NCBI GenBank assembly: GCA_020072565.1
Contig: JAIQGI010000058.1
Coordinates: 1-34,626 of the forward strand
Reading direction: 5' to 3'
Length of the DNA stretch: 34,626 nt
From: Terriglobia bacterium
GTDB taxonomy: Bacteria; Acidobacteriota; UBA6911
Part shown: piece after piece, positions 5,820 through 34,626 of the stretch
Position numbering within the stretch: position 1 is the stretch's first letter
Layout: every line of letters begins with the position of its first letter
The notes under the pieces: model-generated
What the model was told of the DNA's origin: nothing
The model's database searches: none
Seen by the model: only the letters and a program-made list of their open reading frames with translations
Translations under genes and position numbers: made by a program

Positions 5820-5832
5820 CAACCCGATTACG

Positions 5833-8121: not shown

Positions 8122-8174
8122 GTGCGTTCCTTTTGGGCAAGTCCCGGAACAACCGGAGACTTGCCCAAAGCTCG

Positions 8175-9341: not shown

Positions 9342-9375
9342 CCTTCTCCTCGCTGATAAACGATTGCAAGCGGGA

Positions 9376-10113
9376 TTACTGAGCCTTTTTGAATCCGATG
9401 CTGGTTTCCCTGACGGCCCTCACTCCGGGGATGTTGAAGGCGGATTTCGATTGCGTGGCCAGTTTGTTCAGGAGGGTCATGTTCGGCTGGACCAGTTCGG
9501 CCATGACTTGACCGTCTGCCACGGCGCGGCAAAGAAAGCGCAGGTCGGTCACCTCTGCCTTCCAACGGCCGGAAGATGTGACGCCCTCGACCTTTGGCGC
9601 TGCCGGAAGCACCGGCGCCGGAACGTTCAGTTCCATGTTGAGCGTCGCCTCGACCTCTTCCACCGAAGCTCCGGCCTTCTCTGCCTGGATGGCCAGCAGG
9701 AGCTTGGCTTCGTCGGCTGCCTTCCTGGCAGCCTCCTCGGCCTGGCGCTGACGCTCGGCTGCGATCCGATCCTGCTCGTCTTTCCAGGTGCGGGCCGCCT
9801 TGCGCAAATAATCGAGGCCACGTTGGACCGGCTCCAGGAAGCTCTTTTCCATGTCGCACAGCTTCTTGTGCAGCGCATAGGCATCGGCTTTCAGCGGGCC
9901 AAAGGTCTTTTTGATCCGGTCCTCGATCGTTACTCCCGCCTGCCCGAGTTCAACGGCCCTCTGGTAGCTCTCGTGATCCACGATCACAAGGGCGGTCGCG
10001 CGTCCTGACCAATCCGTCGCTTCCCGTTTCACCAACTCCTTCACGTCTTCCTTCTTGACCGTTTCCTGCACGCCCTCTGTTCCGGGCGCAGGAAACTGAA
10101 CGATGTTGTTCAT
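9376..10113 (-). CDS. Coiled-coil phage protein of the recombination cluster
   Basis: A 245-residue protein. Residues about 60-160 are a long charged coiled coil (TWKDEQDRIAAERQRQAEEAARKAADE). The C-terminal part holds the block GRWKAEVTDLRFLCRAVADG and ends with IPGVRAVRETSIGF, which I recognise from phage proteins usually encoded beside RecB-like nucleases and annealing proteins. No enzymatic motif is visible. The ATG at 10111-10113 overlaps the stop of the nuclease gene (ATGA) and has GGGAGGG upstream. A structural or accessory role in recombination or replication is inferred from context. Confidence 0.6.
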   Translation of the reverse strand: MNNIVQFPAPGTEGVQETVKKEDVKELVKREATDWSGRATALVIVDHESYQRAVELGQAGVTIEDRIKKTFGPLKADAYALHKKLCDMEKSFLEPVQRGLDYLRKAARTWKDEQDRIAAERQRQAEEAARKAADEAKLLLAIQAEKAGASVEEVEATLNMELNVPAPVLPAAPKVEGVTSSGRWKAEVTDLRFLCRAVADGQVMAELVQPNMTLLNKLATQSKSAFNIPGVRAVRETSIGFKKAQ

Positions 10114-10756: not shown

Positions 10757-10900
10757 TCAATAATAGACACACCTCCCATAAAAGTGCCACGCATCGCCAC
10801 GCGACGGCCATTCATTACTTGTTGATGGCGCACATAATAAATATTTAAATTTATATGTCAAGAACATTCTCAAAAAAATCGCCGGAATGCTAAAGAAATC

Positions 10901-10929
10901 TTTTCATCCGTCCGAACTTAGGTTAAATT
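10901..10929 (+). promoter_or_regulatory. Possible repressor promoter, leaderless transcript
   Basis: TTTTCA (10901-10906), a 17-bp spacer and TAAATT (10924-10929) lie just before the repressor ATG at 10937. No Shine-Dalgarno sequence precedes that ATG, so transcription may start at or very near it, as for some phage repressors. Each box matches consensus at 4 of 6 bases. Confidence 0.35.
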
Positions 10930-10936
10930 GCGGCAT

Positions 10937-11440
10937 ATGAAGACATTAGGAGAATTCCTAGATGAGAAAGTTCAGACAGGCGGGTGGGGCGCCCAGGAAG
11001 CCCTCGCGGAAAAACTGAAGCTTTCATCCTCGGCTATCAGCGGTTGGAAGCGTGGCAAAAAACCTGGGTTCGGCGACTGTCTTCGCATCGCCCAGGCCTT
11101 CGCCAATGATCCCGTGATTCAGGGCGACCCGCTCGTAGTCTTCGCGATGACCAACCAGCCGGAATCTGCAGAACTCTACCGCAGTTTCTTTCCATCAACC
11201 GAACACACCAAGACCGTTCGCGATGCAGAATGCGTTTGCTCCAAAAACAGCAAGCGTCACAGCCTGCATGCCAGGTTGGAAGAGATTCTGGACGGTCGAC
11301 TCGGCTACGCCATCGCCGCCAATATCGAGGCTCTGTACAAACTACATTCCCTGCCACCTGCCAGTGATGAGCCGGTAGGCCATGGCCCCTACTACCCAGG
11401 AACCAGAGTGCGGAAACGGCGGGGGCGGCGCTTAACCTGA
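10937..11440 (+). CDS. Phage repressor-like helix-turn-helix protein
   Basis: A 167-residue protein with an N-terminal Xre/Cro-type helix-turn-helix (residues about 1-60): ALAEKLKLSSSAISGWKRGKKPGFGDCLRIAQAF. The rest is basic with two Cys-x-Cys residues (AECVCSK); no peptidase or dimerisation domain of the LexA/CI type is recognisable, so control may differ from the SOS-cleaved repressors. It is divergent from the early operon and separated from it by the promoter-operator region. I infer it keeps the early promoter off in the lysogen. The ATG at 10937 gives the usual start of the HTH; a TTG at 10928 in frame is less likely. Confidence 0.75.
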   Translation: MKTLGEFLDEKVQTGGWGAQEALAEKLKLSSSAISGWKRGKKPGFGDCLRIAQAFANDPVIQGDPLVVFAMTNQPESAELYRSFFPSTEHTKTVRDAECVCSKNSKRHSLHARLEEILDGRLGYAIAANIEALYKLHSLPPASDEPVGHGPYYPGTRVRKRRGRRLT

Positions 11441-11860
11441 CGCGGCGCTCGTCGTGCGAGGACTATCGGTCCTGCCGGTCCTGCGCTTATCGGGTCGCTC
11501 TTCCTCTGGAAGACGTATGAGAGTGCCACAAAAGCAGCATATATAGAGGCGCGGCGGCAATTCATGAAAGCAGTGCTTCTTGCATCCATTAACTGGAGGT
11601 AGGCGATCCATCCTATCAAAATCCTTTCGATTCCTTTCTGGTTCATAATTTGAAACTTACATATACCAAGAACGCAAAATAGAAGGTACTGCCTACCGGA
11701 AATCCTGGAGTATTATGGGGCAGTGGCCTGGAAATTGGGTGGAATGACAATGGAAACAGCTCTATTTATTTTCATGGCAGCAGTTATGTCTGCCGCAAGC
11801 CTCGCTTGAACTCGGACATTTCCAGGATCTCTTGTCAATTATTCGATGTGATCGCATAAT
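11441..11860. other. Junction region between phage repressor and host-like block
   Basis: About 420 bp with no convincing gene. A plus-strand frame ending at a TGA near 11808 encodes a membrane-like peptide tail (GMTMETALFIFMAAV), but it has no start with a ribosome site. This may be the remnant of a larger gene. A short minus-strand frame (11392-11646) runs across the repressor end and shows no domain. The change from phage to host-type content happens in here; no flanking direct repeat or IS end was found. Confidence 0.35.
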
Positions 11861-13030
11861 TTGATTGTGTGGTTCCTGAGGTACGCAGAAGAGCACGTGC
11901 GCCGCTCGGCGCGAACACGGCCGGTCCTGGTTCTCACCGGCGCCCGCCAGACTGGAAAGACCTCGACCCTTCGGCGGCTGTTCCCGAATTACGGCTTCAC
12001 TTCCCTCGATCTGCCGACGGAAGCCGAGCAAGCCGAGAAAGAGCCGGAGGCTTTCCTTCAACGGCACCCAGCGCCCGCCATCATAGACGAGGCGCAGCAC
12101 GCCCCCGCTCTATTCCACCATCTCAAGGTGGCGGTGGCGCAGAAACGGAACCGCCACGCGCAGTACCTTCTCACCAGCTCGCAGAAGTTCACGCTTATGA
12201 AGGGCGCGTCGGAATCACTCGCCGGGCGCGTGGACGTTATCGAACTGGAGACATTATCTCTGGCGGAAATCCTTGCGGCTACGCCAGGATTCAGGCAGGA
12301 AGCCGCAATTGCTGTGCGCGGCGGCTTCCCGGAATTGCACGCCAACCCGGAAATCGATTCCGTGGCCTTCTACAATTCCTATCTGGCAACGTATCTGGAG
12401 CGCGATGTGCGCTCGCTCGCAAACGTCACGAGTCTGCGCGACTTCGAACGCTTTTTGCGCGCCTGTGCCTTGCGCTCAGCCAATCTGCTGAACAAGGCCG
12501 ACCTGGCGCGCGACGTGGGGATTGCGCCCTCCACCGCCAATCTTTGGTTGTCCTCGCTTGAGGCATCTGGACAGGTAGTATTGCTGGAGCCGTGGTTTTC
12601 AAGCCACACCAAGTCGCTTGTAAAGCGCCCAAAGCTCTACTTGGCGGATACTGGCCTGCTCTGTGCCTTGCTGAACATCCGCTCGGAGGAAGCCCTGGCC
12701 CAGTCACCCTGGGCCGGCGCGGTATGGGAGACGTTTGTCTTTGCCCAGTTACGGCACCGAGAACGCCGCGCCGGACGTGCCGGCAGCTTGTTCTACTGGC
12801 GCGATCGCACGCGCGAGGTAGACTTCGTCGTGGATGCCGGCGGTCGCCTGGAGCTTTTCGAAGCAAAATGGACCGAGTTGCCGGCTCAATCCGATACTAT
12901 CAACCTTGCCTTCATGCGTGATGCTGTGGGCAAGGCACGGATTGCGGAGGCGTCCATTGTCTGCCGCGCGCCGAACAGTTATTCCGTCGCCAACGGATTC
13001 AAGGCCGTGCCCATTGTGGAACTCTATTAG
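11861..13030 (+). CDS. AAA_14/DUF4143 family ATPase
   Basis: A 389-residue ATPase. Walker A is GARQTGKT (about 27-34), Walker B is AIIDEAQ (about 73-79), and LLTSSQKF is the sensor-like strand. The second half is the DUF4143 domain: YLERDVRSL, a winged-helix-like stretch (LARDVGIAPSTANLWLSSLE), KLYLADTGLLCALL, WETFVFAQL and a nuclease-like fold end (YWRDRTREVDFVVDAGGRLELFEAKW) with Asp, Glu and Lys in PD-(D/E)XK-like spacing. The function of this family is not established. The start is odd: no ATG is available, only TTG (11861) or GTG (11867), and no ribosome site is visible. Intact otherwise; it is monocistronic and ends 217 bp before the next padR. Confidence 0.8.
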   Translation: MIVWFLRYAEEHVRRSARTRPVLVLTGARQTGKTSTLRRLFPNYGFTSLDLPTEAEQAEKEPEAFLQRHPAPAIIDEAQHAPALFHHLKVAVAQKRNRHAQYLLTSSQKFTLMKGASESLAGRVDVIELETLSLAEILAATPGFRQEAAIAVRGGFPELHANPEIDSVAFYNSYLATYLERDVRSLANVTSLRDFERFLRACALRSANLLNKADLARDVGIAPSTANLWLSSLEASGQVVLLEPWFSSHTKSLVKRPKLYLADTGLLCALLNIRSEEALAQSPWAGAVWETFVFAQLRHRERRAGRAGSLFYWRDRTREVDFVVDAGGRLELFEAKWTELPAQSDTINLAFMRDAVGKARIAEASIVCRAPNSYSVANGFKAVPIVELY

Positions 13031-13101
13031 CGAATTAGCGCGCTCCTCATATCCCGTAGCCAAGCGGTCGCTCGCAGTTGGCGACTAGGAGGGAGCAAGA
13101 C

Positions 13102-13218
13102 ATGGAGGAAAGTGCTCCTGTGTACGTTAAGATATTCTTCCGAACCGCACTACTTTTCGAAAACAGGCAATCAATGGGCCTTAAAAGATCAAATTCTCTC
13201 ACTTTTCTCTTCAGGTAG
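13102..13218 (+). CDS. Possible 38-residue peptide
   Basis: An ATG at 13102 is preceded by AGGAGGG at good spacing (about eight bases), and the frame runs 38 codons to TAG at 13216-13218, 29 bp before padR. The peptide is [13 protein letters not shown] followed by a basic, Ser/Leu-rich tail; I recognise nothing in it. The strong ribosome site is the main support. It could instead be a leader peptide of the padR-ADOP operon, or chance. Confidence 0.3.
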
Positions 13219-13247
13219 ATAATCTTTTGGAGTATGCTATTTTCACT

Positions 13248-13601
13248 ATGCCAAAGAAGGGAACCTCCCCAATACAGGGGGAAATACTGCAAGGCACTCT
13301 GGACCTGCTGGTACTGCAAACGCTCGTGATGGGTCCCGCTCACGGCCATACCATTGCCCATGCCATCGAGCATCGGTCGGGAAACGTCCTCCAGGTCGAA
13401 CACGGATCTCTATACCCGGCGCTGCATCGCCTCGAAGTTCGGGAGTGGATCGCCTCCTTTTGGGGCACCTCGGAAAATAATCGCAAGGCCAGGTATTACC
13501 GGCTGACGACTGCAGGTCGCAAACAACTGTCGGAACAGGTGAGCCGCTGGGATCAACTGGTTCAGGCCATCAATCGCATTATCCGGCCGGCCATGGAGTA
13601 A
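13248..13601 (+). CDS. PadR-family transcriptional regulator (acidobacterial type)
   Basis: A 117-residue PadR winged-helix protein: [30 protein letters not shown], then [23 protein letters not shown] and [19 protein letters not shown]. Compared with its homologues, the ATG at 13248 gives the expected N-terminus; a TTG at 13227 would add seven residues. No clear Shine-Dalgarno is at the expected distance from the ATG, so the transcript may be leaderless. The permease gene follows after 4 bp, making a two-gene operon in which it is likely the repressor. Of the three regulators here, this one has HGHT where the others have HGYG or HGYA. Confidence 0.9.
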
Positions 13602-13605
13602 CGCC

Positions 13606-16236
13606 ATGGGTTGGACACGATTTTTCAGGCGCGGATTTTGGGATAAAGAGCGCTCACGCGAGATTCAGTCGTACATCGAAATCGAGACAGACGAAAACAT
13701 CGCCCGGGGCATGTCTCCGGAAGAGGCACGCTATGCCGCACACAAGAAGTTCGGCAACGTGGCTTCCGTCCGTGAGGAGATCTATCACATGAATACGATC
13801 GGCTTCCTCGAATCGCTATGGCAGGATCTACGCTATACCTTCCGCTCCTTGCGCCGCAATCGCGGCTTCGCGGCGACCGCCATCATAACGCTGGCGCTTG
13901 GCATCGGCGCCAACACGACCGTTTTCAGCGCCTTGGATGCCGCCATGTTCCGCCCCTTGCCGTACCGGGACCCAAGCAGGCTGGTCACGATCGCGTGGGT
14001 CGCGGCGCGCGGCTCAGCAGAGCAGGTGACTTATCTCGGCGGCGCGTCACTGCAGGAAATGGAGGACTGGCGCGCGCAGAAACAGATCTTTGGCGGCGTC
14101 GAGCCTTTTTCTCTGCCCCCATCAACGGGAGTGGAGGAGCCGGTTGCCATGGTGTATATCTCGGCCGGCATGCTGGACCTGTTAGGTGTCCAGCCGAGGC
14201 TCGGCCGCGGCTTTCTCCCGGAAGAAGGGCTACCGGGCAGAGATCAGGTTGCATTGCTCAGCCACTCGTATTGGCTGCGGGAGTTCGATAGCGATCCTGC
14301 CATTCTTGGCAAGACAATCAGGCTCGATGGTCGTGTCTACACGATTGTGGGAGTTATGCCGAGCAATTTTCAATTTCCCCCCGGTTCAAAGCCGAATGCC
14401 TGGGCGCCGTGGACAGAGAAGGTTGAAAGCAATCCGTCCATTATCGCCCGTCTCCGTCCCGGCCTCAGCAACGAGCAAGCCGAACGGGAAACGGCACTCG
14501 TCTCGGACCGAATTCACTACAGCGGTCGCGTGCCGCGGGCAAAGATGACCCCGGAATTCTTGCCGGTTAGCGACCGCCTGAATTCTTGGCTCGGGTTCAA
14601 CAGGAACACCCGGACCGCGCTTCTTATCATGATGGGGGCCGTCGGTTTTGTTCTACTGATTGCGTGCGCCAACGTTGCCAACTTGTTGCTTTCCCGCAGC
14701 GCTAAGCTCCAGCGCGAGGTTGCTATTCGGTCAGCAATAGGCGCAAGTCGCGGCCGTCTGGTGCGCCACTTCCTGGTCGAGAGTATGGTTCTTGCCGCGG
14801 CCGGCGCTCTGGCTGCCGTTCTACTAACCTGGTGGTTGACCCATGCCATTCCCACCTTGCTGCCTGCGGACCTCAGGCGGCTGTTTGCCACCTACGAATT
14901 GGCCCTGAGCAAGAGAGTGTTTGCGTTCACTGTCGCCGTGACAGTGTTGACGTGCTTGTTAAGCGGTCTGATTCCGGCGTTCAGAACCGCGCACGGAGGG
15001 GTGATCGGAGGCTTGATTGGAACAGGACGCACCGCAGGCGTCACTCGTGCCACCCGGAGGCTTCACATTGGCTTGCAGAGCCTTCAGGTGGGCCTTGCGC
15101 TCGTTCTCCTCTGCGGTGCAGGGCTCATGGCCAACAGCTTCGTGCGCATGACTCTCACAGACAGCTGCTTTGACACACGAAATTTGTGCCTCGTCAGGGT
15201 ATCTCTTCCTCAAAGTTATCCGAAGGGGCCGGAGCGGCAGGCGTTTTATGACCAACTTCTGTCAATTGTGAAAACCCTACCTGCGGTGCAGTCGGCTATA
15301 TTGGCAGCGGGAACGCCCACAAGTCTGGGATTCGGAACCCGCAAGTTGTTCGCTGAAGATGCCCTGGGCGCCGGTGCAGAACCCTGGGGCGGGGATCTGC
15401 TCTTCGTTGGAGCAGATTACTTCTCTACACTCCGAATTCCTATGGTTGCCGGTCGTGATTTTGGACCGGAAGACGGGCCTTCATCACCTCTGGTCGCCGT
15501 GATCGATCGCCGGACCGCCGAGCATTATTGGCCCGGACAAAGCGCTCTGGGCCGGCGCATTCGTGCGGGCTCTGGGGCTCCATGGGTTACGGTTGTCGGC
15601 GTCGTTGCATCGGTCAAGACGCCGTCGTTCACCAGTCCGAAAGGGGTACAGATTTACAAACCCATTTCCCAAGGGAATGGGGTGGTGGGCAGCAACCTGA
15701 TTATTCGGACTGCCGGTGACCCGAGACCGGTCCTGGCCGAGGTACGCGCCAGGATTGCCGATTTCAATCCTGGCGCCACGGTCCGGACCGCGGCCACTTT
15801 TGATGAGTTGTACGAAACCATGGATGCCGAGGCTGCCGCAACCCCGCGCTTCTACCTCATCCTGATGTCCATATTCGCGGGAGTGGCGCTGGCGACCGCC
15901 GCAGTGGGCATCTACGGCGTGCTTTCCTATTCGGTGGCCCAGCGTTCTTCGGAGATAGGCGTCCGCATGGCCCTCGGAGCGACCGCGCATGACGTCCACC
16001 GGCTTGTTGTACGCAGCATTCTGTTGCCTGTCGGAGCGGGCATCGTCGGCGGCGTAATTGTATCCCTTTGGCTCACCCGGCTGCTGCGCTCCCTTCTCTA
16101 TCAAATCACGCCCCATGATCCCCTAACGATCGTCCTGGTTGCTACATTTCTGCTGCTCGTGTCACTGGCCGCAAGCTACCTGCCATCCCGGCGAGCGACG
16201 AGAATCGATCCCATGACCGCCCTGCGAATCGAATGA
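13606..16236 (+). CDS. ADOP-type permease (FtsX/MacB-like)
   Basis: An intact 876-residue acidobacterial duplicated orphan permease. Residues 1-85 are a cytoplasmic domain (RSREIQSYIEIETDENIARGMSPEEARYAA). A first membrane segment starts near 88 (AATAIITLALGIGANTTVF), followed by a MacB-type periplasmic domain to about 330. The first FtsX domain (about 338-450) includes LLIACANVANLLLSRSA and EVAIRSAIGASRGRL. A second periplasmic domain (about 500-740) and a second FtsX domain (EIGVRMALGATAHDV, ending RRATRIDPMTALRIE) complete the duplication. There is no ATPase gene nearby, as usual for these orphans. It probably moves a substrate or reshapes the envelope with a separate ATPase; the substrate is unknown. 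It forms one operon with the padR just upstream. Confidence 0.92.
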   Translation: MGWTRFFRRGFWDKERSREIQSYIEIETDENIARGMSPEEARYAAHKKFGNVASVREEIYHMNTIGFLESLWQDLRYTFRSLRRNRGFAATAIITLALGIGANTTVFSALDAAMFRPLPYRDPSRLVTIAWVAARGSAEQVTYLGGASLQEMEDWRAQKQIFGGVEPFSLPPSTGVEEPVAMVYISAGMLDLLGVQPRLGRGFLPEEGLPGRDQVALLSHSYWLREFDSDPAILGKTIRLDGRVYTIVGVMPSNFQFPPGSKPNAWAPWTEKVESNPSIIARLRPGLSNEQAERETALVSDRIHYSGRVPRAKMTPEFLPVSDRLNSWLGFNRNTRTALLIMMGAVGFVLLIACANVANLLLSRSAKLQREVAIRSAIGASRGRLVRHFLVESMVLAAAGALAAVLLTWWLTHAIPTLLPADLRRLFATYELALSKRVFAFTVAVTVLTCLLSGLIPAFRTAHGGVIGGLIGTGRTAGVTRATRRLHIGLQSLQVGLALVLLCGAGLMANSFVRMTLTDSCFDTRNLCLVRVSLPQSYPKGPERQAFYDQLLSIVKTLPAVQSAILAAGTPTSLGFGTRKLFAEDALGAGAEPWGGDLLFVGADYFSTLRIPMVAGRDFGPEDGPSSPLVAVIDRRTAEHYWPGQSALGRRIRAGSGAPWVTVVGVVASVKTPSFTSPKGVQIYKPISQGNGVVGSNLIIRTAGDPRPVLAEVRARIADFNPGATVRTAATFDELYETMDAEAAATPRFYLILMSIFAGVALATAAVGIYGVLSYSVAQRSSEIGVRMALGATAHDVHRLVVRSILLPVGAGIVGGVIVSLWLTRLLRSLLYQITPHDPLTIVLVATFLLLVSLAASYLPSRRATRIDPMTALRIE

Positions 16237-16275
16237 TCACCGCTGCATTCTGAAGACTGAAAACAGGCTGCTGGC

Positions 16276-16288
16276 GCTCCTTTGGAGC
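16276..16288. terminator. Small hairpin between convergent permease genes
   Basis: GCTCC-TTT-GGAGC lies in the 78-bp gap between the two convergent ADOP genes (stops at 16236 and 16315). The stem is only 5 bp and no strong T-run follows on either side, so termination would be weak. Confidence 0.25.
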
Positions 16289-16314
16289 TTAAGTACTTGG
16301 TAATGATCGGCACT

Positions 16315-18981
16315 TCATTCGTTCCGTAACAGATGGGTTGGATTGATACGCGCTGCACGTCGAGCCGGTAGCAGCCCGGCCACAGCACCGACTAGAACGA
16401 GTACGGCAACCGCCGCTGCCAGTGTTATTGGATCGGTAGGGCGAAGACCGAAAAGCAATGATCCGACAATGTGCGCCGACCACAGATTAAGCACGGTGCC
16501 TAACGCAACTCCAGCGCCGATGAGCATGCCAACGCGCCCAAGCATCATTCCGACTACACGAGCAGGGGTGGCACCTAGAGTCATCCGAATCCCGATCTCA
16601 AAGCGGCGACGAATCACCGCATAGGCGGTCACGCCGTATACCCCGAGCCCTGCAAGGAGCAGAGCGAGAAATCCGAAAAAGCCGGACAGCATCGCGATCA
16701 GGCGTTCCTGGGCGAGCGACGCATCCATGATGTCGGCGAGCGGTCGAAAGCTGACCGTGAGGTCGGGGTAGGCCCTGTCAATGGCCGCAGCAATGTCTCG
16801 CACATGTGATCTCGGTAATCCACTTGCCATGCGCACGCCGATCTTGATTGATAATCGCGGATTGGGCCTCAGTGGGAAATAAATCGTTGGTGGTGCTGGC
16901 TCGCGCAATGACGCATATACTGCATCCTTCACCAGTCCAATGATTTGAACAGGCTTTTTATATGGAACAATTGTTCGTCCCACCGGAATGATACCGCTGA
17001 AGAATTTCCGTGCGAAGGCTTCGTTGACGATCGCAACGGACGGCTCATCCAGCCGATCAGAACCGGCAAAATCACGCCCCGCGATAATTGACGTCCCGTA
17101 AGTCGTGAACCAGCCTGGGCTGACGGAATTAAAATTAACACGAAGGTCGGCTTCCGTTAATCCAGGTTCTCCAGGCACCGCCTCGAGGATGGTCATAACG
17201 TTGATACCGTTTACTGGCTCTTGGGTCGAGGCAGCCACCTGAGCAACGCCCGGAACGCCGGCAACCGCTCTAGACAGACGATCGACCTCCACCGTCTTGG
17301 TACTTCTCCCCTGTGAGCCGATGTTGACGATCAGCACGCGATCCTGATCGAATCCGGGATCAAGTGTGACGAGCGCCAGAAATGTCCTGATGAATAGGCC
17401 AGCGACAAAGACAAGCACGAGTGAAAGCGCCATCTGAACGACCACCAACGCACTGCCCAATTCGAAGCGTCGATTGCTGGACAGGCAGTATCCTTCTTCC
17501 TTGAGCACTTCATTCGGCTGCGTGCGTGAAGCTCGAAGCGCCGGAATTGTGCCGAACAGCAGAGTGGCGACTCCCGTCACCACTGCCGAGAATCCAAGCA
17601 GACGCCAATCCAGGGGCAGATAAAGAGAAAGCCCTCCTGCCATGACGGATAGCTGCTGTACGAGCCACTGGCCGCACAATTTTGCGCAGCTGAGTCCCAG
17701 CACGGCACCGCCGCAGGAGAGCAGCAGGCTCTCAACCACGAGCTGGCGGGCTAGCCGCAGTCGCGAAGCTCCCAGCGCCCGCCGCACGCTCAACTCATGC
17801 CGGCGCGCCGCAGTGCGTGCCAGAAGCAGATTCGCGATGTTGGTACACGCGATAAGCAGCACCAAACCGGAAACAGCCATCAGGATGCAGAGTGGCCGCT
17901 CGTACCTGCTGCGCCACCATGATGGTTCTCTCGCAGCCGATCGCAGCGTGAAAGGCTCCTTGAGATAGTCCTGCACATATCTTTCGGCCGGATTGCCTGG
18001 CAGCGTCATCTCCCGAATTTGGGGCTGCACGGCACGTAGAGCAACCGTTGCGGCTTCCTCAGTCTGATCGGGTTTGCGTCGAACCAGGATGTTCAGCCAC
18101 CATGCGGTCCGACCGTCATGCCAGCTGTCTTGGCCGCGGATCAGCGGCTCCGTCCCGATCGGGACGATGACATCAAATGATCCTCCAGCTTCCAGGCCGA
18201 AGAAGCCGGGTGGCGTGACACCGACGATGGTGAGAGGAATGCGATCTAGTCGAAGTGTTCGCCCGATAACATCCGAAGATCCGCCGAATTGCCCCTGCCA
18301 GAATCGGTAGCTGAGAACCGCAACCGGTCCGTCTCGCCCGCCTCCCCTCTGATCGTCCGCTTCGTTGAAGGTGCGGCCGAGGATCGCCGGGACACCGAGT
18401 ACGTCAAAGAACCGGCCGCTGGCAAAAATGCCGCTGATGAATTCAGGCTGATTTCCACTCTTCAGGTTCAATTCGGCTCTAGACCAGGCCACGGCGCCGT
18501 CGAAGAGTTGCGGCCGGTCCCGAATCTGCTCCCAGATGGGATTCGTCCAAGGCCCCCCCTTGCGTTCAATGAGCATGAGTCTGCTCGGATCGCGCACGGA
18601 AAGCGGCCGCAGGCAGAGGCTGTCGAGGATCGAGAAGATCGCTGCATTCGCACCGACCCCCAGTGCGAGCGAGAGGATAGCAACTGCCGCAAATCCTGGA
18701 GACCGGCGAAACTGACGAACGGCGCAATGGACATCTTTTGACAGATCCGAAAGCAAGCGGAAACCATACGCATCGCGATATTCCTCTCTGGCTTGGTCGA
18801 GCCCTCCCAGGGAGATCCTGGCTTGTCTCATTGCTTCTTCTTTTGACATGCCCTGATGCACGTTCTCTTCGGTGAGCATCTCTAGGTGAAGCTGCAGTTC
18901 ATCCTTCAATCGCTCTTCCAGGTCCGGTTGCCTGAAGGACGCGCCAAGTCGTGACATGAGTGATCTGAGACGAGTCAGCAC
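16315..18981 (-). CDS. ADOP-type permease (FtsX/MacB-like)
   Basis: An intact 888-residue permease with the same duplicated layout as the convergent gene at 13606: cytoplasmic N-terminus (LKDELQLHLEMLTEENVHQGMSKEEAMRQA), first membrane segment (VAILSLALGVGANAAIFSILD), periplasmic domain containing LTIVGVTPPGFFGL, FtsX domain (LLIACTNIANLLLARTAARRHE, SVRRALGASRLRLA), a second periplasmic domain, and a last FtsX domain (EIGIRMTLGATPARVVG, ending RRAARINPTHLLRNE). I start it at GTG 18979-18981, with GAGGAG seven bases upstream; a TTG at 18996 overlapping the padR stop lacks this. It is co-transcribed with the padR upstream. The substrate is unknown. Confidence 0.92.
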   Translation of the reverse strand: MLTRLRSLMSRLGASFRQPDLEERLKDELQLHLEMLTEENVHQGMSKEEAMRQARISLGGLDQAREEYRDAYGFRLLSDLSKDVHCAVRQFRRSPGFAAVAILSLALGVGANAAIFSILDSLCLRPLSVRDPSRLMLIERKGGPWTNPIWEQIRDRPQLFDGAVAWSRAELNLKSGNQPEFISGIFASGRFFDVLGVPAILGRTFNEADDQRGGGRDGPVAVLSYRFWQGQFGGSSDVIGRTLRLDRIPLTIVGVTPPGFFGLEAGGSFDVIVPIGTEPLIRGQDSWHDGRTAWWLNILVRRKPDQTEEAATVALRAVQPQIREMTLPGNPAERYVQDYLKEPFTLRSAAREPSWWRSRYERPLCILMAVSGLVLLIACTNIANLLLARTAARRHELSVRRALGASRLRLARQLVVESLLLSCGGAVLGLSCAKLCGQWLVQQLSVMAGGLSLYLPLDWRLLGFSAVVTGVATLLFGTIPALRASRTQPNEVLKEEGYCLSSNRRFELGSALVVVQMALSLVLVFVAGLFIRTFLALVTLDPGFDQDRVLIVNIGSQGRSTKTVEVDRLSRAVAGVPGVAQVAASTQEPVNGINVMTILEAVPGEPGLTEADLRVNFNSVSPGWFTTYGTSIIAGRDFAGSDRLDEPSVAIVNEAFARKFFSGIIPVGRTIVPYKKPVQIIGLVKDAVYASLREPAPPTIYFPLRPNPRLSIKIGVRMASGLPRSHVRDIAAAIDRAYPDLTVSFRPLADIMDASLAQERLIAMLSGFFGFLALLLAGLGVYGVTAYAVIRRRFEIGIRMTLGATPARVVGMMLGRVGMLIGAGVALGTVLNLWSAHIVGSLLFGLRPTDPITLAAAVAVLVLVGAVAGLLPARRAARINPTHLLRNE

Positions 18982-20970: not shown

Positions 20971-21000
20971 AAGGGCCGCCGGCCGGAGCTGGCGGCCCTT
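20971..21000 (-). terminator. Terminator hairpin at the end of the phage late operon
   Basis: AAGGGCCGCC (20971-20980) and GGCGGCCCTT (20991-21000) form a perfect 10-bp stem with a 10-nt loop. It begins 7 bp after the stop of the last late gene, read on the minus strand. The T-rich tail is modest (CTTCCAACCTT), so Rho-independent action is likely but not certain. Confidence 0.6.
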
Positions 21001-21006: not shown

Positions 21007-21330
21007 CTATGGGCTGATTTCCACCCTGACCTGCCCTGGAGGGCTCAGGGTCTTGACCGTAACCGACACTGGCGAGCCATCCAAGGCAGCGCCCACCACG
21101 TTCGACACACTGCTTACCTGAGCGTTCACCGTGGCGAATTTTCCCTGGAAAACGGCTTGGTTTAGGCCGTAGATGATTACCCGAACCTTGCCGTTGACTG
21201 GCGCCTGCGCGATCTGTTTCTGGACGGTGTCAACCAAAGCGACGGTTCCTGTCGTGTCCAGATCGAATTGCAGGCTGGCCACCGGTTTGTCAACATACAG
21301 GAATACCATCATGAGAAAGACCGCCTTCAT
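21007..21330 (-). CDS. Cohesin-like domain protein
   Basis: A 107-residue protein that looks like most of a cohesin-type beta-sandwich: PVASLQFDLDTTG near the N-terminus, then NGKVRVIIYGLNQAVFQGKFATVNAQV, then a final strand pair (GSPVSVTVKTLSPPGQVRVEI). The block VRVIxxGLNQ...GxxAxVxxQV is what I know from cohesin modules of acidobacterial extracellular proteins, which pair with dockerins. The N-terminal 15 residues are hydrophobic (AVFLMMVFLYV) but may be a strand rather than a signal. The ATG at 21328-21330 overlaps the stop of the FN3 gene (ATGA). It is the last gene before the late terminator. The call rests on pattern recognition; a generic Ig-like fold is the alternative. Confidence 0.5.
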   Translation of the reverse strand: MKAVFLMMVFLYVDKPVASLQFDLDTTGTVALVDTVQKQIAQAPVNGKVRVIIYGLNQAVFQGKFATVNAQVSSVSNVVGAALDGSPVSVTVKTLSPPGQVRVEISP

Positions 21331-21599
21331 TGGGTTACCGATACGTTCACCACGATCGAGATGGACAATCCGCCGACCTTCGAGCACGGGGCCGGCGTCT
21401 TCACCGGATCTGATTGGGGGCCTTCGCCCCACACGTTAACGGCCGAAACCGCAAATGTATGCGCTTCGGGCGTGATGTCCACCTCGAATTTCGGTTCCTG
21501 CGTGTTTGCTACCTGCGCACCGTCCATGTAAACATTGTACCCAGTAACCTGCTCTTCTGCCGCATTGGCAGGCCAGCTCAATTGCGCCCTTGTTGCCAT
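21327..21599 (-). CDS. Small fibronectin type III protein
   Basis: A 90-residue protein made of a single FN3 fold: AQLSWPANAAEEQVTGYNVYMDG, FEVDITPEAHTFAVSAVNVWGEGPQSDPV. No signal peptide is visible. The ATG at 21597-21599 has AAGGA nine bases upstream; a GTG three codons earlier sits too close to that site. It lies 21 bp after the FN3-dockerin gene and is coupled to the cohesin-like gene by a 4-bp overlap. FN3 domains occur on many phage tails and lysis-region proteins, where they may hold carbohydrate; here it may be a spacer or decoration. Confidence 0.65.
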   Translation of the reverse strand: MATRAQLSWPANAAEEQVTGYNVYMDGAQVANTQEPKFEVDITPEAHTFAVSAVNVWGEGPQSDPVKTPAPCSKVGGLSISIVVNVSVTQ

Positions 21600-21620
21600 C
21601 AAACACACTCCTTGCTTTTG

Positions 21621-22103
21621 TTATTTACACCCTGTGATCCCGAGGATCACAGAGACCAAGATCTGCACGTCGAGCACGTTGGTCCCGCCATCTCCGTTCA
21701 TATCGCCGCTTACCATTGGGGACAGCGGCTTCACGCCAAGGATGGCATTGATGAGTGCCTGCAGGTCCATTATGTTCACCGCGCCATCAAGGTTCAGATC
21801 GCACCTTGAGGGCGCCGTGATAGTCGTAGAAACCTCATTCGAGAAGCCGCTCTCCAGGCCGGCTGTGTTGTATGCCGTCACCGCGAAATAGTAGGTGCCT
21901 AGTGACAGGCCGGTCACGGTGAAGGTGGTCTGCTTGCCCAGGGAGATCGGCGCGCCATATGTCCTCGGCGACGTGCCGTAGTAAACCTTGTAGCCGGCCA
22001 GATCGGTTTCGCTGTTTGGATCCCAGGCCAGGGTCACATCCGCCGCCAGGAGCGGTGCCGGGGCCAGCCACATCAAAAGGATCAATACCCTTTTCCAGCG
22101 CAC
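21621..22103 (-). CDS. Exported FN3 protein with C-terminal dockerin type I
   Basis: A 160-residue protein: signal peptide (LILLMWLAPAPLLAA, about 1-21), FN3 domain (VTLAWDPNSETDLAGYKVYYG to SNEVSTT, about 22-95), and a dockerin at about 101-159. The dockerin has two calcium-binding F-hand repeats: CDLNLDGAVNIMDLQALINAIL (ligands Asp 102, Asn 104, Asp 106, Asp 113) and DMNGDGGTNVLDVQILVSVIL (Asp 134, Asn 136, Asp 138, Asp 145). Cys 101 and Cys 159 could close the ends. The GTG start at 22101-22103 has GAGGG seven bases upstream and is 9 bp after the metallophosphoesterase. The dockerin would bind a cohesin; a cohesin-like protein is encoded two genes downstream. Confidence 0.85.
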   Translation of the reverse strand: MRWKRVLILLMWLAPAPLLAADVTLAWDPNSETDLAGYKVYYGTSPRTYGAPISLGKQTTFTVTGLSLGTYYFAVTAYNTAGLESGFSNEVSTTITAPSRCDLNLDGAVNIMDLQALINAILGVKPLSPMVSGDMNGDGGTNVLDVQILVSVILGITGCK

Positions 22104-22112: not shown

Positions 22113-22907
22113 TCAGTTGACAAACAATGTGCAATTGAAGAACGCCTTCAACGTGGTTCGGTCGCCGTTGACGATCTCGACAATCGGGTGCTGCTCGACT
22201 GAGAAGCAGTCGCTCTTCCTGTCCTTGTAGACAATCGAGAACCCAAGCTGCCAATTCGGGTGATCGACGTAAGCCGGGTTTCGGTCGCAGAGACAGAAGT
22301 TTTCGTAGGCAACCACATCCCGGTCCCACAGCCGCTTGAAAGACGACCCGCCCCGGTGCGTGTGGTTTTGAATCAGCGAGATGCCCTTACTGTCCAGGAG
22401 ATTCTTCGCCGTGTACCCGCTGTGTTTCGATACGGCGTCAAAATGTCCGATCAGCAGCTTGCCCCACTGCCAGCTCGTCTCTTTGTTGCCTGAGTAAACG
22501 CATTCAATCCTGTGCTGGTCCAGCTCCAGTTGCTCCTGCAGCGTCATGCCCTTTAATCCGTGCAGCTCGCGGGCATTGCTGGCAATAAAGACGGCCCACC
22601 TGTGCTCGTGATTCCCGAACACGTACACGATGCGCGCCCTCTGAAACCGCTTGCGAAGGCGCGCGAGGAAATCTCGGGTGAGATTCAACTCTGAAGAGAG
22701 CTTGGCCTTATCGTGGCACGCCGGGTTTTTGTCAAATTTTGATATGTCCCAGCAATCTGTTGCATCTCCGTTGATCACAACCAGGTTCGGGGCCAGTTCT
22801 TCTGCAATGCCCAGCGCCACTTCGATGGCCCTGTCATTCTGCCAAGGGAAATGAAGATCTCCGAGAACGAAGGCAGTCTCGTAATCGGCAGACGTGTGAC
22901 GTTTAAT
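22113..22907 (-). CDS. Calcineurin-like metallophosphoesterase
   Basis: Metal-binding motifs of the calcineurin-like fold occur in order: GDLHFPW (D-x-H), INGDATD (GD), YVFGNHEHRW (GNHE), IGHFDA (H) and QNHTHRGG (H-x-H). The first motif lies upstream of any in-frame ATG or GTG, so the gene must start before 22880. The best candidate is ATT at 22905-22907, spaced six bases from AGGGGG, giving 264 residues; the first in-frame GTG (22820) would lose the D-x-H motif. The substrate is unknown; phage members act on cyclic nucleotides, nucleic acid ends or phosphoproteins. It lies between lysis genes and the dockerin gene in the late operon. Confidence 0.75.
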   Translation of the reverse strand: MKRHTSADYETAFVLGDLHFPWQNDRAIEVALGIAEELAPNLVVINGDATDCWDISKFDKNPACHDKAKLSSELNLTRDFLARLRKRFQRARIVYVFGNHEHRWAVFIASNARELHGLKGMTLQEQLELDQHRIECVYSGNKETSWQWGKLLIGHFDAVSKHSGYTAKNLLDSKGISLIQNHTHRGGSSFKRLWDRDVVAYENFCLCDRNPAYVDHPNWQLGFSIVYKDRKSDCFSVEQHPIVEIVNGDRTTLKAFFNCTLFVN

Positions 22908-23791: not shown

Positions 23792-24526
23792 TTAAAATGC
23801 CCGTGCGATCGTGGCCAGCAGTTGTGCGAGAAGCAGCAGTTTCTGATACTTTGAAGAAGTCGCAGCGATCCTGTCGATGCTTGCGGCAATCGACGGCGCC
23901 GACTGGGATGCTTTTTCGATGTTCCCGGCCGTTGCGTCAGCATGCGCGGTGGTCGCCGCGATGTTCTTCAGGATCTCCAGCCATTGCGGGTCGGCAAGCA
24001 GGGCATTGATCTCGTCAATCGACACGCTGCCCTTTGCCGCGATCGTCTGCACTGAGGCTGTAACCGCCTGCATGGAAACGCCCAGCGTTTTCGCTGTCTC
24101 CGCCAGGCTCGGCAGAAGCCCGTCGTTGAGGTTTCTGTCCGTGTTTCGCACCAGCGCCGTAAGCGCCTGCGCGCTAGCATCGAAACTGCCCATGGCCGCG
24201 CCCAGGCCCTTCAGGTTCTCCTTCACGAGCGGAATGAGAACCTTGTTGATGTCCTTTGCGGTCCCATTCAACACGGCCGCCGTTTGCCAGCCGGCTTCGA
24301 GCGCCTTTTGATTCCGCGGACTCTCAAGGATCACCTTCTGCTTTTCCGCGTAATCAGCAGCTAGCTTCGCGGTGCGCTCAACCTGGCCTACGGCACCGTC
24401 CGCCTTGACGACGGCGCTGTCGGCTCTCAGCAGGAGACAGTGAACGTCCCGAGTCACCACAAAAGCGCAGATCATCAGAGAAGCCGCCAGGGCGCATAGG
24501 AAAACCGCCTTGATCGTGTTAAGCAT
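23792..24526 (-). CDS. Membrane-anchored helical protein of the lysis cassette
   Basis: A 244-residue protein. One membrane helix near the N-terminus (VFLCALAASLMICAFVV) is followed by a long, mostly alpha-helical domain rich in Ala, Thr and Ser (VGQVERTAKLAADYAEKQK, ASVQTIAAKGSVSIDEINAL) with the look of helical-bundle proteins; its C-terminus is hydrophobic (LLLLAQLLATIARAF). No enzymatic motif is seen. The ATG at 24524-24526 overlaps the lysozyme stop by 8 bp and has AGGAG eight bases upstream. It could be a spanin-like membrane-connecting protein or another lysis accessory; this is inference. Confidence 0.55.
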   Translation of the reverse strand: MLNTIKAVFLCALAASLMICAFVVTRDVHCLLLRADSAVVKADGAVGQVERTAKLAADYAEKQKVILESPRNQKALEAGWQTAAVLNGTAKDINKVLIPLVKENLKGLGAAMGSFDASAQALTALVRNTDRNLNDGLLPSLAETAKTLGVSMQAVTASVQTIAAKGSVSIDEINALLADPQWLEILKNIAATTAHADATAGNIEKASQSAPSIAASIDRIAATSSKYQKLLLLAQLLATIARAF

Positions 24527-25055
24527 GCGCCAGCTCCTGGTACATGCGGGCGTACCTGAGAACGTCCGCACTGTAATTGGCGTGGGCCGTGTATGTGTCC
24601 ACGTCCATCTTCTGCGCCAAAGCCTGGAGCACCTTTCCCTCGCCGCAGTTGTAGCCGGCAATGCTCGCGCGCTCCAGGTCTGGCACCCGCAGGGACTTCC
24701 TGCGCGCCAGTATCTGAATTGCTTGGCGCTTCTTTGCCAGCACCTCCGCGGCAAACAATCCGTTCAGGCGCGGGTCTTTCCACTTCTCGCCGGTGCAGAA
24801 CTCTGGGAAGCTGCGGTCGTCGATTTGAAACAAGCCGCGGCCGTGCCCGTTGTTGCCGACGTCATCGGCCGGATTGTCGGGCGTGCCGAAGACATCTTTC
24901 AGGAGCTTCGACTTGCCGCCCAGGGTTTCCCTCATCAGGATTCCGCCCATAATCCCCTCGCGATGCTGGTAAAGCTCGGCCCCCTCAACGAGGATCGCGC
25001 GATAGGTCGCAAGGATGTGTTTCAACAACGCTATTTCCTGTTCAGTGTTAAGCAT
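24519..25055 (-). CDS. Goose-type lysozyme-like endolysin
   Basis: A 178-residue muramidase-type enzyme. The region MGGILMRETLGG holds the probable catalytic Glu 43, and GNNGHGRGLFQIDDRSFPEF matches the GHGxGLxQID block of goose-type lysozymes and related GH23 transglycosylases. The end contains AGYNCGEGKVLQAL, the conserved A-GYN-G helix of this fold. It would cleave peptidoglycan at the end of infection. No signal peptide is evident, so a holin is expected. The ATG at 25053-25055 has GGGGAT six bases upstream and overlaps the preceding stop by 8 bp. Confidence 0.85.
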   Translation of the reverse strand: MLNTEQEIALLKHILATYRAILVEGAELYQHREGIMGGILMRETLGGKSKLLKDVFGTPDNPADDVGNNGHGRGLFQIDDRSFPEFCTGEKWKDPRLNGLFAAEVLAKKRQAIQILARRKSLRVPDLERASIAGYNCGEGKVLQALAQKMDVDTYTAHANYSADVLRYARMYQELAHA

Positions 25056-25299
25056 CTGGCATCCCCAAGAGTTTTTTGATGTCCGTCCGTACCTCATTCA
25101 GGCCGACTTTGATTTCGTCGAGTTGAGGCTGCAGCACGTCCTTGCGCACAAACAGCTCGGGACATTGGCTCTGGCATTTCTCCACATCTTCCAGCCTCTT
25201 ACTCGTGCGGCCATAGCCGCCGGCCAGTACTACTGCGTTCAGCAGGCTCGTGAAAACAAACGTCACGACCGCCTCCAGGTGTTCTGTTATCCACGTCAT
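25048..25299 (-). CDS. Small membrane protein with a coiled-coil tail
   Basis: An 83-residue protein with one membrane segment near the N-terminus (VVTFVFTSLLNAVVLAGGY) and a helical C-terminal tail (VLQPQLDEIKVGLNEVRTDIKKLLG). Two Cys occur in CQSQC. The layout resembles XhlA-type or Rz-type lysis partners, or a class III holin. GGGGAC lies five bases before the ATG. It is the first gene of the lysis block, coupled to the endolysin. Confidence 0.5.
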   Translation of the reverse strand: MTWITEHLEAVVTFVFTSLLNAVVLAGGYGRTSKRLEDVEKCQSQCPELFVRKDVLQPQLDEIKVGLNEVRTDIKKLLGMPDA

Positions 25300-30572: not shown

Positions 30573-33500
30573 CTAGCCCCGCATGTAGGCGAAGCCGCCG
30601 TTGCGCCAAGTGCGCGTCACGGCATCGGCGACCCTGCGATCGAGGTCGTCATTCCCAAAAATGTCGCCGTTGATGTTCACGACCACGGGTGGCATATCGC
30701 CACGGCCTCCATTGTCCAGGTTGTCCCGCAAGGCATTCTCGGTCCCGGCTCCAGGCACCGTACCAGTGTTGCCACCGTTCGGCTGTGCAACAGTGGTGTA
30801 GGTTCTGAGGTTTTTGAGCATCACATCGATCTCAGCCACGACCGAAGAAGCCGCCGCCGAAATCGCGTCAGCGATTTTGTTACCGACCCTGTCGAACTCA
30901 TCCGTCACGGCATCGGTCAACCGGGTGATCTCCGAGGTGGTCTTCGTCTCGGCATCGGCCAGGTCGCCCAGGAGCCCCTTGATCTGCTCCTGGTAAGCGG
31001 CATCCATCGCGGCTTTTGTCTGAGCCAGCAGGTTGTCGCTGATCGTATTGAACCCTTCGCCGTATCGCTCCACTGCAGTTTTTCCGGCGCTGCCTCCGTA
31101 CTGAAGCAATGCCTGCCGCATCGGATCGGTGAGCTTGCCGCTGCTCTGGAAGCCGGAGACCAGCTGATCCCAGTTGGACATGCCGCCGATCACGGGAGCC
31201 AGGGCTTTGAACTTCGCCGGGTCCAACCCGGTCGCGGTCAGGGCGTCAACGACGGACTGGTCGAAATTGCCCGCGAGGATCTTCTCGACCGCATTCTGCT
31301 GCGGCGCCAGGTCCTGCAGCTTCTTCTTGAGTTCGATGATGAAATCAAGAGACCTATGCAGCCCGGGCAGCGCTGCCGCCTGGTTGATCACTTCCAGATT
31401 GCCGCCGAACCTCTCGAACATATCGAGGATGCCCGGCATGATCTCGCCCGTCTCCTTGAAGTGCTCGACCATGTCGGTCCAGCTCTTGTCGGTTTGGGTG
31501 AGATCCGCGAAATCCTTAAACCTGTCGAGGTTCCCGCCCAGCTTCTGAATCTGAGCGGTGAGCTCGTCCGTAATGTGACCCGTAGCCACGAACTGGTCGT
31601 ACATCGACTTCGTCTGCGGCACGAGGCTTTTGACCGCAGTCTGGAGATTCTGGAGGTCGGTCACCGCCTTGCTCGGAGCAAGAAGCAACTCGCTCCAGTT
31701 CGGCAGCGCCTTATTGAGAGCCTCGGAGTTTTTGAACGCCTTGGCAAACTCCTCGTTGAGTTTGGTCCAATCGCCCGTGGTCTGCCCGAGTTCGAAAGCG
31801 GCCCGAAAATTGAACGTCCCCCACAAAGTCTTGACGGCTTCGAGCGACTTCAGGAAAGCGTCGACTTTCCCTTGCGCCTGCGCCATCGGATACAGAGTCT
31901 CGACCAGGAACTTCGGCGTCGAAGAGATGTCCTTTCGGACGCCGTAGGCCGTCGACTCGCTGAGCCCGAGGCCCTGATAGTAGGACGCGAACTCGTCTTT
32001 GGTCATGTTGATGCCGCCAAAGTCGCGCGCCACTTCCATCGACCCCGCAACCTCCGCCGTTTTGCCCTTGATGGCATTGACCAGCGCAGGGAGTCCCTTT
32101 GCCAGCGCGGCCGCCGCGGCCCCGATCGCCATACCGACCGGTCCGCCTTGCGCCAGGCCGGCCATAGCACCGCCGCCGATTCCCTCGACCCATCCGGCGG
32201 CCCCGCCACGGTTCAGACTGTCCATAGCGAGCATCATGCCGCCGGCAGTCATAGCACCGCCGACCGCGCCGCCGATCCCCTTGCCGTTGATCCCGCCTTT
32301 CGGGAGCCCGAAAAGCCCTCCGCCAGAACTGCCCTTGCCCATCATCGCGAGCGTAGGGCCGACGAAATCCGGTGGATAAGACGACGCCGCGACCCCGCCG
32401 GACTTGAACAGACCGGAGATCGCGTCAGCCAGCGACTTGCCGATCCGCTTCATCTGATCCTTCACCGGAGCGAGCAGTCCATCGAACAGAATCCGAAGCA
32501 GGCTTTTCGCGGAATCCTTCGCGATCCGCCCCATGGTCGTCCAGAAACCTTTCCACTCGACGATGGAATCGGCCATCCCCTTCGTCCAATCGTTAAAGAT
32601 GGTCGACACCTCCTCCGCCACCTGAGTTTTGGTCTCCTTGGCTCGGCCAACCATGGTGCGGTTGAACTCGGCCCAGTTTTTGTCGAGCTGCGATTCGGTC
32701 GGCAGCTTGACTAGACCGTTGAGCGGATTCTTGATCGTCGACCGGCCGATTTCCTCCTGGTTCTTGTACATCAGCTCTCGGATCCCGGACGCCGTGTCGG
32801 CCAGCTGTGCCGGAGTGATGGACTTAAGGCCCTCATGCCAGGACTTCATGGCATCGTCCGCCTTCTTCCAGATCAAAGCTGAGTTGTATAGCTCCTGATC
32901 CACCTTGGACAGCGGCTCCTGAAAATCCTTCTGCGCTTCAGTCGCCTTGACAATCTCCTGCCAATGCGCCTGCGCGTACTGGTCAACGGTAGCGCCCACC
33001 GCCTTGTACTTCTCGAACTCCGCCGTGATTGCCGACATCGGCTTGATTTCTTTGAGCCATTGCTCCTGGAGTTTCTTCTCGTCCTCCGTAAGCTGATGCA
33101 CAGAGGCGGCCGCCGCTGTATGCGACTCGGTCTGCTTTTTGGCCAGCTTCTCGATCTTGTCGTAGGCATCGAGCATCGGCTTGATGCGGTCGATGTACTT
33201 CTGAGGGTCTTCCCAGCCCGACCTTTTCAGGATGTCGATGCCGTATTGCGCCTCGTCCTTGCCAAGGTTCAGGCTGCGCGCCCGTTTCTCAAGTGCCTCC
33301 GCTTCTTTGCGAAGCGCCTCTTGAGACAATTGCTGCATCTCTTTGACGCGGCCTTGGAACAAACCCAGTTTGTCCCATAACTTGGTCAACGCCTCATCGG
33401 CCCCGGTCAGGTCGGCAATCCAGCGACCTATGTTCCAGCCCAGGATTGCAGCGCCGGCAACAGAAGCGGCTTTCCCGAACAGGCCCATGTTGCTGGCGGC

Positions 33501-34626
33501 CCCGGAGATAGCCGTTTTGAAGTTGTCCCAATCCTTGATAACCGATGCGATCTTGAGCCCAGCCAAAGCCACCCCGAATGAGGTCAACGCTATCGTGTAC
33601 GCGTTTATCGGGGCTGCCCCGCCCTCTAAGAATCCATTGAGATCCCTAATGGCATTTGCGAATGAGCCGGTATCAGGAAGAAGGCTCTTGAACGTCTTAC
33701 CGAGGTTTGTCCAGAGAGCTTCGAGCTGATCTTTCAACGTCGCGGTTTGCTTCTTGAAGGCTTCGTCCGTCAGGCCGGCGGCGTTCGCCATGTCTTTCAG
33801 GTACTCGGTGTACGTGCCAGCCTGTTCTCCCGTGAGGGCGAGGGCAGCCCGCAAGGCCCGGACACTGCCGAAAAAGGTAGCGATCGCCTCGTCGTTGCCT
33901 TTCGAAGCTTTTGCCAGGTCTCCCAGCGCGCCAGCCAGTCCTTTTGTCTTCAGAGCCGCAGCGTCGATCTCGACGTGTAGCTCTTTGGCGAGCTTCTTGG
34001 CCTGTGCGGACGGATTCAGAAACGCAAGCAACGCCTGGTTCAAACTGGTCGTCGTGATCTGCGCACTCAAACCCATCTGGGTCATCGTGGCAAATGCCGC
34101 GCCCAGCTGTCCCAGGTCGACTTTCAGGGCCGCCGCAGTCGGGATCACCATGCCCAGCGAATGAGCCAGCTCGTCGCCTGTGGTCTTCCCTTTGCGGACC
34201 ATTTGGAAAAGGATGTCGCTGACGCGTGTCGTCTCTTCGACCTTCAAGCCGTAGGCGTTGATGACCGTAGTCAAGAGATCCACCGACGTGTACGTGTCGG
34301 TCACGGCAGCCTTGGCGAACTTGGCTGCATCCTCGACAAACTTCACCGATTTCGAAGGATCGATGTTGGCAGACAATGCCAGGTACATGCCCTTGGCAAG
34401 CTCGGCGGTTGTCCCGAATTCAGCCGAGACGTTTTTCAGCTGATCGTACAGCGCGCCGGCGTTGACCTTTGTTTCGTCGAGCAAGGTTCGGACATTGGCC
34501 CAGACCTTCTCGCCCTCCATGGCGGATTGCGTCCACTCCCGGATTTGGTTACCGACGGCCAGGGCGCCGAACGTCAGGCCCAGTCCACCCACGATGCCCT
34601 TGACCGTGTTCAACACGGACCCGAAC
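30573..34626 (-). CDS. Phage tail tape measure protein (N-terminus outside window)
   Basis: At least 1350 residues, open to the right edge, so the true start is not seen. The first 350 residues carry the TP901-type tape-measure core: VRTLLDETKVNAGALYDQL, LAKGMYLALSANI, TTVINAYGLKVEETTRVSDILF, TGDELAHSLGMVIPTAAAL. A long Gly/Ala-rich hydrophobic stretch (around residues 780-840 from the window edge) may be the membrane-insertion segment. The C-terminal residues VVVNINGDIFGNDDLDRRVADAV are typical of the family. It sets tail length, and by the usual 0.15 nm per residue the tail would be about 0.2 micrometre. No sheath or tube gene is in view. Confidence 0.9.
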   Translation of the reverse strand, partial: FGSVLNTVKGIVGGLGLTFGALAVGNQIREWTQSAMEGEKVWANVRTLLDETKVNAGALYDQLKNVSAEFGTTAELAKGMYLALSANIDPSKSVKFVEDAAKFAKAAVTDTYTSVDLLTTVINAYGLKVEETTRVSDILFQMVRKGKTTGDELAHSLGMVIPTAAALKVDLGQLGAAFATMTQMGLSAQITTTSLNQALLAFLNPSAQAKKLAKELHVEIDAAALKTKGLAGALGDLAKASKGNDEAIATFFGSVRALRAALALTGEQAGTYTEYLKDMANAAGLTDEAFKKQTATLKDQLEALWTNLGKTFKSLLPDTGSFANAIRDLNGFLEGGAAPINAYTIALTSFGVALAGLKIASVIKDWDNFKTAISGAASNMGLFGKAASVAGAAILGWNIGRWIADLTGADEALTKLWDKLGLFQGRVKEMQQLSQEALRKEAEALEKRARSLNLGKDEAQYGIDILKRSGWEDPQKYIDRIKPMLDAYDKIEKLAKKQTESHTAAAASVHQLTEDEKKLQEQWLKEIKPMSAITAEFEKYKAVGATVDQYAQAHWQEIVKATEAQKDFQEPLSKVDQELYNSALIWKKADDAMKSWHEGLKSITPAQLADTASGIRELMYKNQEEIGRSTIKNPLNGLVKLPTESQLDKNWAEFNRTMVGRAKETKTQVAEEVSTIFNDWTKGMADSIVEWKGFWTTMGRIAKDSAKSLLRILFDGLLAPVKDQMKRIGKSLADAISGLFKSGGVAASSYPPDFVGPTLAMMGKGSSGGGLFGLPKGGINGKGIGGAVGGAMTAGGMMLAMDSLNRGGAAGWVEGIGGGAMAGLAQGGPVGMAIGAAAAALAKGLPALVNAIKGKTAEVAGSMEVARDFGGINMTKDEFASYYQGLGLSESTAYGVRKDISSTPKFLVETLYPMAQAQGKVDAFLKSLEAVKTLWGTFNFRAAFELGQTTGDWTKLNEEFAKAFKNSEALNKALPNWSELLLAPSKAVTDLQNLQTAVKSLVPQTKSMYDQFVATGHITDELTAQIQKLGGNLDRFKDFADLTQTDKSWTDMVEHFKETGEIMPGILDMFERFGGNLEVINQAAALPGLHRSLDFIIELKKKLQDLAPQQNAVEKILAGNFDQSVVDALTATGLDPAKFKALAPVIGGMSNWDQLVSGFQSSGKLTDPMRQALLQYGGSAGKTAVERYGEGFNTISDNLLAQTKAAMDAAYQEQIKGLLGDLADAETKTTSEITRLTDAVTDEFDRVGNKIADAISAAASSVVAEIDVMLKNLRTYTTVAQPNGGNTGTVPGAGTENALRDNLDNGGRGDMPPVVVNINGDIFGNDDLDRRVADAVTRTWRNGGFAYMRG

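Follow-up and report, generated by a model that had tools for sequence, protein, structure and literature searches.

Here we report that a prophage of a soil Acidobacterium carries, side by side on the minus strand at 21007-22103, genes for an FN3-dockerin protein, a small FN3 protein and a cohesin-like protein of 107 aa, and we see about an even chance that this trio is a phage-borne, host-derived cohesin-dockerin cassette, which would be made late and whose products are predicted to bind each other in a calcium-dependent manner outside the cell or at lysis. The window analysed, 34,626 nucleotides, is the whole of contig C58 of a 7.46-Mb genome, with the prophage inside it, and its genes have close relatives in Acidobacteria. 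Cohesin-dockerin pairs are among the strongest known non-covalent protein links, those described from bacteria and archaea bind tightly, and little is known of what they do when not part of a cellulosome. To our knowledge no phage cohesin-dockerin pair has been described before, and the open-access literature yielded none, in agreement with the earlier note on this DNA, whose author knew of no phage system of such a kind. A dockerin-like gene has been noted in vibriophage VvAW1 (PMC3558961), dockerins have been counted in Acidobacterial genomes (PMC5900883), and many bacteria and archaea have non-cellulosomal cohesins and dockerins, according to a passage of PMC9012536 that cites Peer et al. 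(2009).

The minus-strand late operon ends with these three genes, and their late position, coordinates, strand and overlap are exactly as the earlier note gave them. The first gene (21621-22103, GTG start) encodes the FN3 and dockerin protein of 160 aa, the second (21327-21599) the single-domain FN3-like protein of 90 aa and the third (21007-21330) the 107-aa protein, the stop of the second and the start of the third overlapping by 4 bp (ATGA at 21327-21330). The operon terminator that had been proposed after the trio is there as a strong intrinsic-terminator-like hairpin on the same strand (20971-21000; 13-pair stem, -27.6 kcal/mol, z -5.2). Upstream of the trio by 9 bp lies a phage metallophosphoesterase gene (22113-22820, minus; PHROG 221 at E 3e-22, Pfam Metallophos over its cut-off); the claim that the trio follows an endolysin and a metallophosphoesterase therefore holds for the latter, while the former is a putative SLT-type lysin (24519-25097, minus) that reached 17.3 bits in Pfam SLT against a cut-off of 21.3. 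A tail tape-measure gene (30573-34616, minus; PHROG 991 at E 4e-45, Pfam PhageMin_Tail) gives the late-operon context, and an integrase gene (5833-7038, minus; PHROG 1 at E 3e-45, Pfam Phage_integrase) that of a temperate phage.

The first protein is, as had been read before, an exported FN3-dockerin with complete calcium ligands. Pfam gives it Dockerin_1 (PF00404) at 38.9 bits versus a cut-off of 22.9 (E 1e-9) and fn3 at 29.3 bits versus a cut-off of 25, an evident signal peptide judged by eye spans residues 1-20 (LAPAPLLA before AD), and in both dockerin repeats, DLNLDGAVNIMD and DMNGDGGTNVLD, Asp or Asn occupies calcium ligand positions 1, 3, 5, 9 and 12. With this score and two such loops it is a type I dockerin, and cohesin binding is predicted. 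The single FN3 domain ascribed to the second gene was matched by fn3, but at 17.2 bits, under the Pfam cut-off, and this protein has no evident signal peptide.

The homology of the 107-aa protein to host cohesins is well supported by sequence comparison, although it is called cohesin-like here, and not cohesin, because it had no Pfam match at E up to 1; the profile searches thus recovered Dockerin_1 for the first gene but, for the third, did not reach the cut-off of Cohesin (PF00963), and PHROGs gave no useful match. Aligned with the nearer host cohesin, a domain over Pfam's Cohesin cut-off, the protein gave a Smith-Waterman score of 88 versus 31.4 +/- 5.6 for shuffles (Z 10.2; 0 of 5000 shuffles), and the same procedure gave Z 7.4 with a second host cohesin and Z 7.1-8.8 with four further cohesin relatives. 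In hhalign its family matched the near cohesin subfamily with a probability of 93.8% (E 1.8e-7) but the broad host cohesin set with only 3%, and the broad profile gave the protein 9.9 bits, a weak test in which 2 of 2000 shuffles did as well; the signal stems from the nearest cohesin subfamily, not from the broad set. Descent shared with that subfamily is therefore well supported by the Z of 10.2, the shuffles and the hhalign probability, and of the earlier claim of a cohesin-like third gene the homology stands, while the protein is abbreviated and escapes the Pfam model. It is ~30 residues shorter than the host cohesin domain (about 130 aa), lacking part of the N-terminus and two loops, and has no clear signal peptide.

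Structural comparison points the same way with less force. Cohesins were the best matches in a PDB search with the 107-aa family profile, and the AlphaFold model is all-beta with a pLDDT of 60.6, which is moderate to weak confidence. The best rows of its structural search were cohesins at Z 5.0-5.8 and rmsd 2.7-3.3 (top row 6kgc, Z 5.8, rmsd 2.7 over 86 residues), where a Z below 8 may arise by chance and where the match is partly circular because the input alignment contained cohesins; Foldseek by itself returned nothing below E 0.001. In so far as the model resembles cohesins best, the outcome in which no cohesin fold is predicted, raised in the earlier note, did not occur.

All three genes recur, at 78-98% identity, in the IMG/VR phage 3300039307_000398 and in another prophage of this genome, on contig C21, the FN3 gene being 87-98% identical in these two, so that the trio is present in related prophages and not confined to host debris. 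Searches elsewhere were less productive: 100 related genomes gave weak matches only, own genome apart, a profile scan of genome contigs with the 107-aa family gave no match, and scans via the metallophosphoesterase and FN3 genes returned the known IMG/VR phage only, plus one distant metallophosphoesterase. In the three related phages all frames are intact, and dN/dS is 0.21-0.26 for the FN3-dockerin gene, 0.02-0.05 for the FN3 gene and 0.14-0.21 for the 107-aa gene, values which indicate that the trio is under purifying selection; kept in three phage genomes at dN/dS 0.02-0.26, it is more than a chance assemblage. Selection of this kind bears directly on the view that the genes are captured host passengers, with the 107-aa protein a cohesin in decay and devoid of binding function. 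The shortening of that protein and its failure in the Pfam cohesin model are what such decay predicts, but the constraint on the 107-aa and FN3 genes, the intact frames and the independent cohesin-dockerin pairings in other phages described below speak against it, and we hold it to be improbable.

The position of the trio within these phages is less uniform. In two of them, that of the window and the IMG/VR one, it comes right after the metallophosphoesterase gene, ~10 bp away at most and on the same strand, and promoter-like sites at the trio do not exceed chance expectation in either. In the C21 prophage (L062) the gap is 2.6 kb and holds two genes without a Pfam match (14525-17125), one of them on the opposite strand, so late expression of the trio is doubtful there. 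These observations pull in both directions on whether the trio is lysogenic-conversion cargo (a moron), a surface-assembly trait of the lysogen and not a lytic-phase function: its place at the operon end, its integrity in C21 despite that separation and the existence of equivalents on host chromosomes agree with cargo, but the close same-strand spacing and the lack of any promoter-like site above chance in the other two phages do not, and we rate this reading as unlikely.

Other features of these phages were recorded in passing. A PadR-type regulator and a MacB/FtsX permease gene separate the early genes from the late operon both in the window (13227-16236) and in the C21 prophage (6713-9725), an ATPase that by eye looks DUF4143-type is common to the three phages (window 11861-13030, C21 prophage 5380-6543, IMG/VR phage 15292-16479), and downstream of the trio the IMG/VR phage (L009) encodes, by eye, an 814-aa SMC-like ATPase and a 475-aa restriction/defence-like protein (10800-14972).

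At least two phage lineages unrelated to the window phage carry, as judged from their genes, their own version of the cohesin-dockerin pair. Viral contigs were chosen because they resembled dockerins or the FN3-dockerin protein, blind to cohesin content, and four more of them encode an FN3-dockerin (L016, L029, L030 and L032). A cohesin-type gene stands next or next but one to it in 3/3 of the contigs with sequence beyond it, the sequence of L032 stopping 163 bases past the dockerin gene. With the Pfam cut-off at 24.1 bits, the cohesin of L016 scores 32.0 (locus between tail genes and holin) and that of L030 25.1 (upstream of terminase and portal genes), both over it, and the cohesin-like gene of L029 falls just under at 21.3 (E 3.3e-4; upstream of terminase), being 29% identical to the L016 gene over 193 residues. 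Folded without an alignment, the L016 protein matched cohesins best, with Z up to 8.5 (1anu). A Pfam Cohesin scan of 48 viral contigs found a clear match in L016, L029 and L030 only, and in 0/43 of the others surveyed (L008 and L032 left out), and the chance of such a coincidence of cohesin with FN3-dockerin is ~1 in 15,000 (hypergeometric, three contigs versus 43). FN3 as the sole explanation of the association was considered and rejected, since cohesin was absent from those viral contigs that had FN3 without a dockerin. By eye, the second gene of L016 and L029 is a cohesin with a C-terminal FN3-like region, so that the two phages have the domain set of the window, cut differently. GenBank phages gave no match for the FN3-dockerin of the window, the 107-aa protein or the L016 cohesin, and unannotated metagenomic phage records there held dockerin or FN3 fragments only.

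Dockerins also occur in other settings in this viral sequence. An exported 208-aa protein of L070 (7536-8162) joins a dockerin to a possible cohesin-like domain (Z up to 6.7). Large proteins of 800-1450 aa with a C-terminal type I dockerin are encoded by many IMG/VR contigs (L045 4440-8210, L073 5820-8210, L075, L078, L079, L080, L083, L087 and L093-L097), in which the Pfam Cohesin scan found no clear cohesin; that of L045 looks by eye like a tail or baseplate protein. Dockerin domains are present on phage endolysins, namely L088 7329-8357, with a match to PHROG endolysins, and L077 2182-3219, which looks alike, and L072 7542-8186 combines CHAP with Dockerin_1.

The same pair resides on Acidobacterial chromosomes, which is why it is not to be taken for a phage invention. 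In L192, of the same family, there is a 4-bp overlap between the FN3-dockerin gene and a cohesin-FN3 gene, with an FN3 gene after them, and in L186 and L191, of the same phylum, a cohesin gene comes directly after the FN3-dockerin gene. The chromosome of the host itself has an FN3-dockerin gene ~5 kb from two cohesin genes, its contig C7 encodes two large secreted proteins with N-terminal domains over Pfam's Cohesin cut-off, and the genome encodes at least four other dockerin proteins. The presence of this gene pair on Acidobacterial chromosomes, in one case likewise with a 4-bp overlap, makes the phage set look host-derived. In the FN3-dockerin tree phage and host copies are interleaved, and its well-supported branches require a minimum of two host-phage transitions.

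A host so equipped also offers binding partners of its own, and the serious main rival to mutual binding is accordingly that the phage proteins dock onto them, the dockerin on host surface cohesins and the cohesin-like protein capturing host dockerins. The host surface would thereby be modified or occupied, as in superinfection exclusion or the blocking of host assemblies. The Pfam-positive cohesins and other dockerins in the same genome, the identity of 63-65% between the phage FN3-dockerin and that of the host chromosome, and the relationship of both phage proteins to the host cohesin-dockerin system would all be expected under such docking, which we regard as possible but tentative. On the other hand, a phage aiming solely at the host would need one half, and the two genes lie side by side in unrelated phages and on host chromosomes, which mutual binding therefore fits better.

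If the products of the trio do bind each other, the phage would make, late in infection, a secreted dockerin protein together with the small FN3 and cohesin-like proteins. The latter two are taken to be cytoplasmic before lysis for want of a clear signal peptide in either; that the dockerin is exported yet its two partner proteins are not evidently so counts against mutual binding. The dockerin and the cohesin-like protein would then come together in the extracellular space or during lysis, and may join in a calcium-dependent way. The joined pair may link proteins with FN3 domains to polysaccharide, virions or the cell envelope, and could hold virions or debris in place or alter the surface of neighbouring cells. 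Of the calcium-dependent adhesive pair suggested in the earlier note, the phage-encoded dockerin with a cohesin-like partner and the late position are borne out, and the abbreviated 107-aa protein, failing Pfam, weakens it. A further and more speculative proposal, which we would not expect to hold in full, is that several tailed-phage lineages independently took the host pair and use it as an adhesive in two parts that is switched by calcium. One half would be exported to the envelope before lysis and the other released or carried with virions, and progeny would thereby be tethered to polysaccharide, neighbouring cells or the debris of the host.

Set against known systems, the trio appears to be a phage form of the cohesin-dockerin pairs otherwise described in bacteria and archaea (PF00963/PF00404). 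It shares with them a type I dockerin with two calcium loops, a cohesin-homologous partner and FN3 modules, and differs in being phage-encoded, in its very small single-domain proteins, in its abbreviated cohesin and in having no scaffoldin, enzyme or S-layer module. With one cohesin-like domain and no enzyme or scaffoldin domain by Pfam and PHROGs, it is not a cellulosome. The Acidobacterial chromosomal pairs (L192, L186, L191 and C7 of the host) are alike in domains and order, L192 down to the overlap, and their nearest dockerin proteins are 62-65% identical to that of the phage, but the chromosomal copies sit among host genes, and the host cohesin proteins are exported and mostly 600-1900 aa (187 aa in L191), whereas the phage versions have 107-229 aa. 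We know of no Ig-like or FN3 virion decoration that uses a cohesin-dockerin pair. Such decorations (T4 Hoc, PMC10385173) resemble the trio as small phage-made beta-sandwich domains thought to contact surfaces, but they are attached to virion proteins by fusion or by binding, while a place on the virion is only one possibility for the trio.

With both halves within about 1.1 kb, under selection and beside late genes, the trio offers a minimal testable system. A selected pair in such a place suggests that the cohesin-dockerin link is of use in the phage life cycle, and its recurrence in unrelated phages, together with the matching host operons, points to a common extracellular function in soil bacteria.
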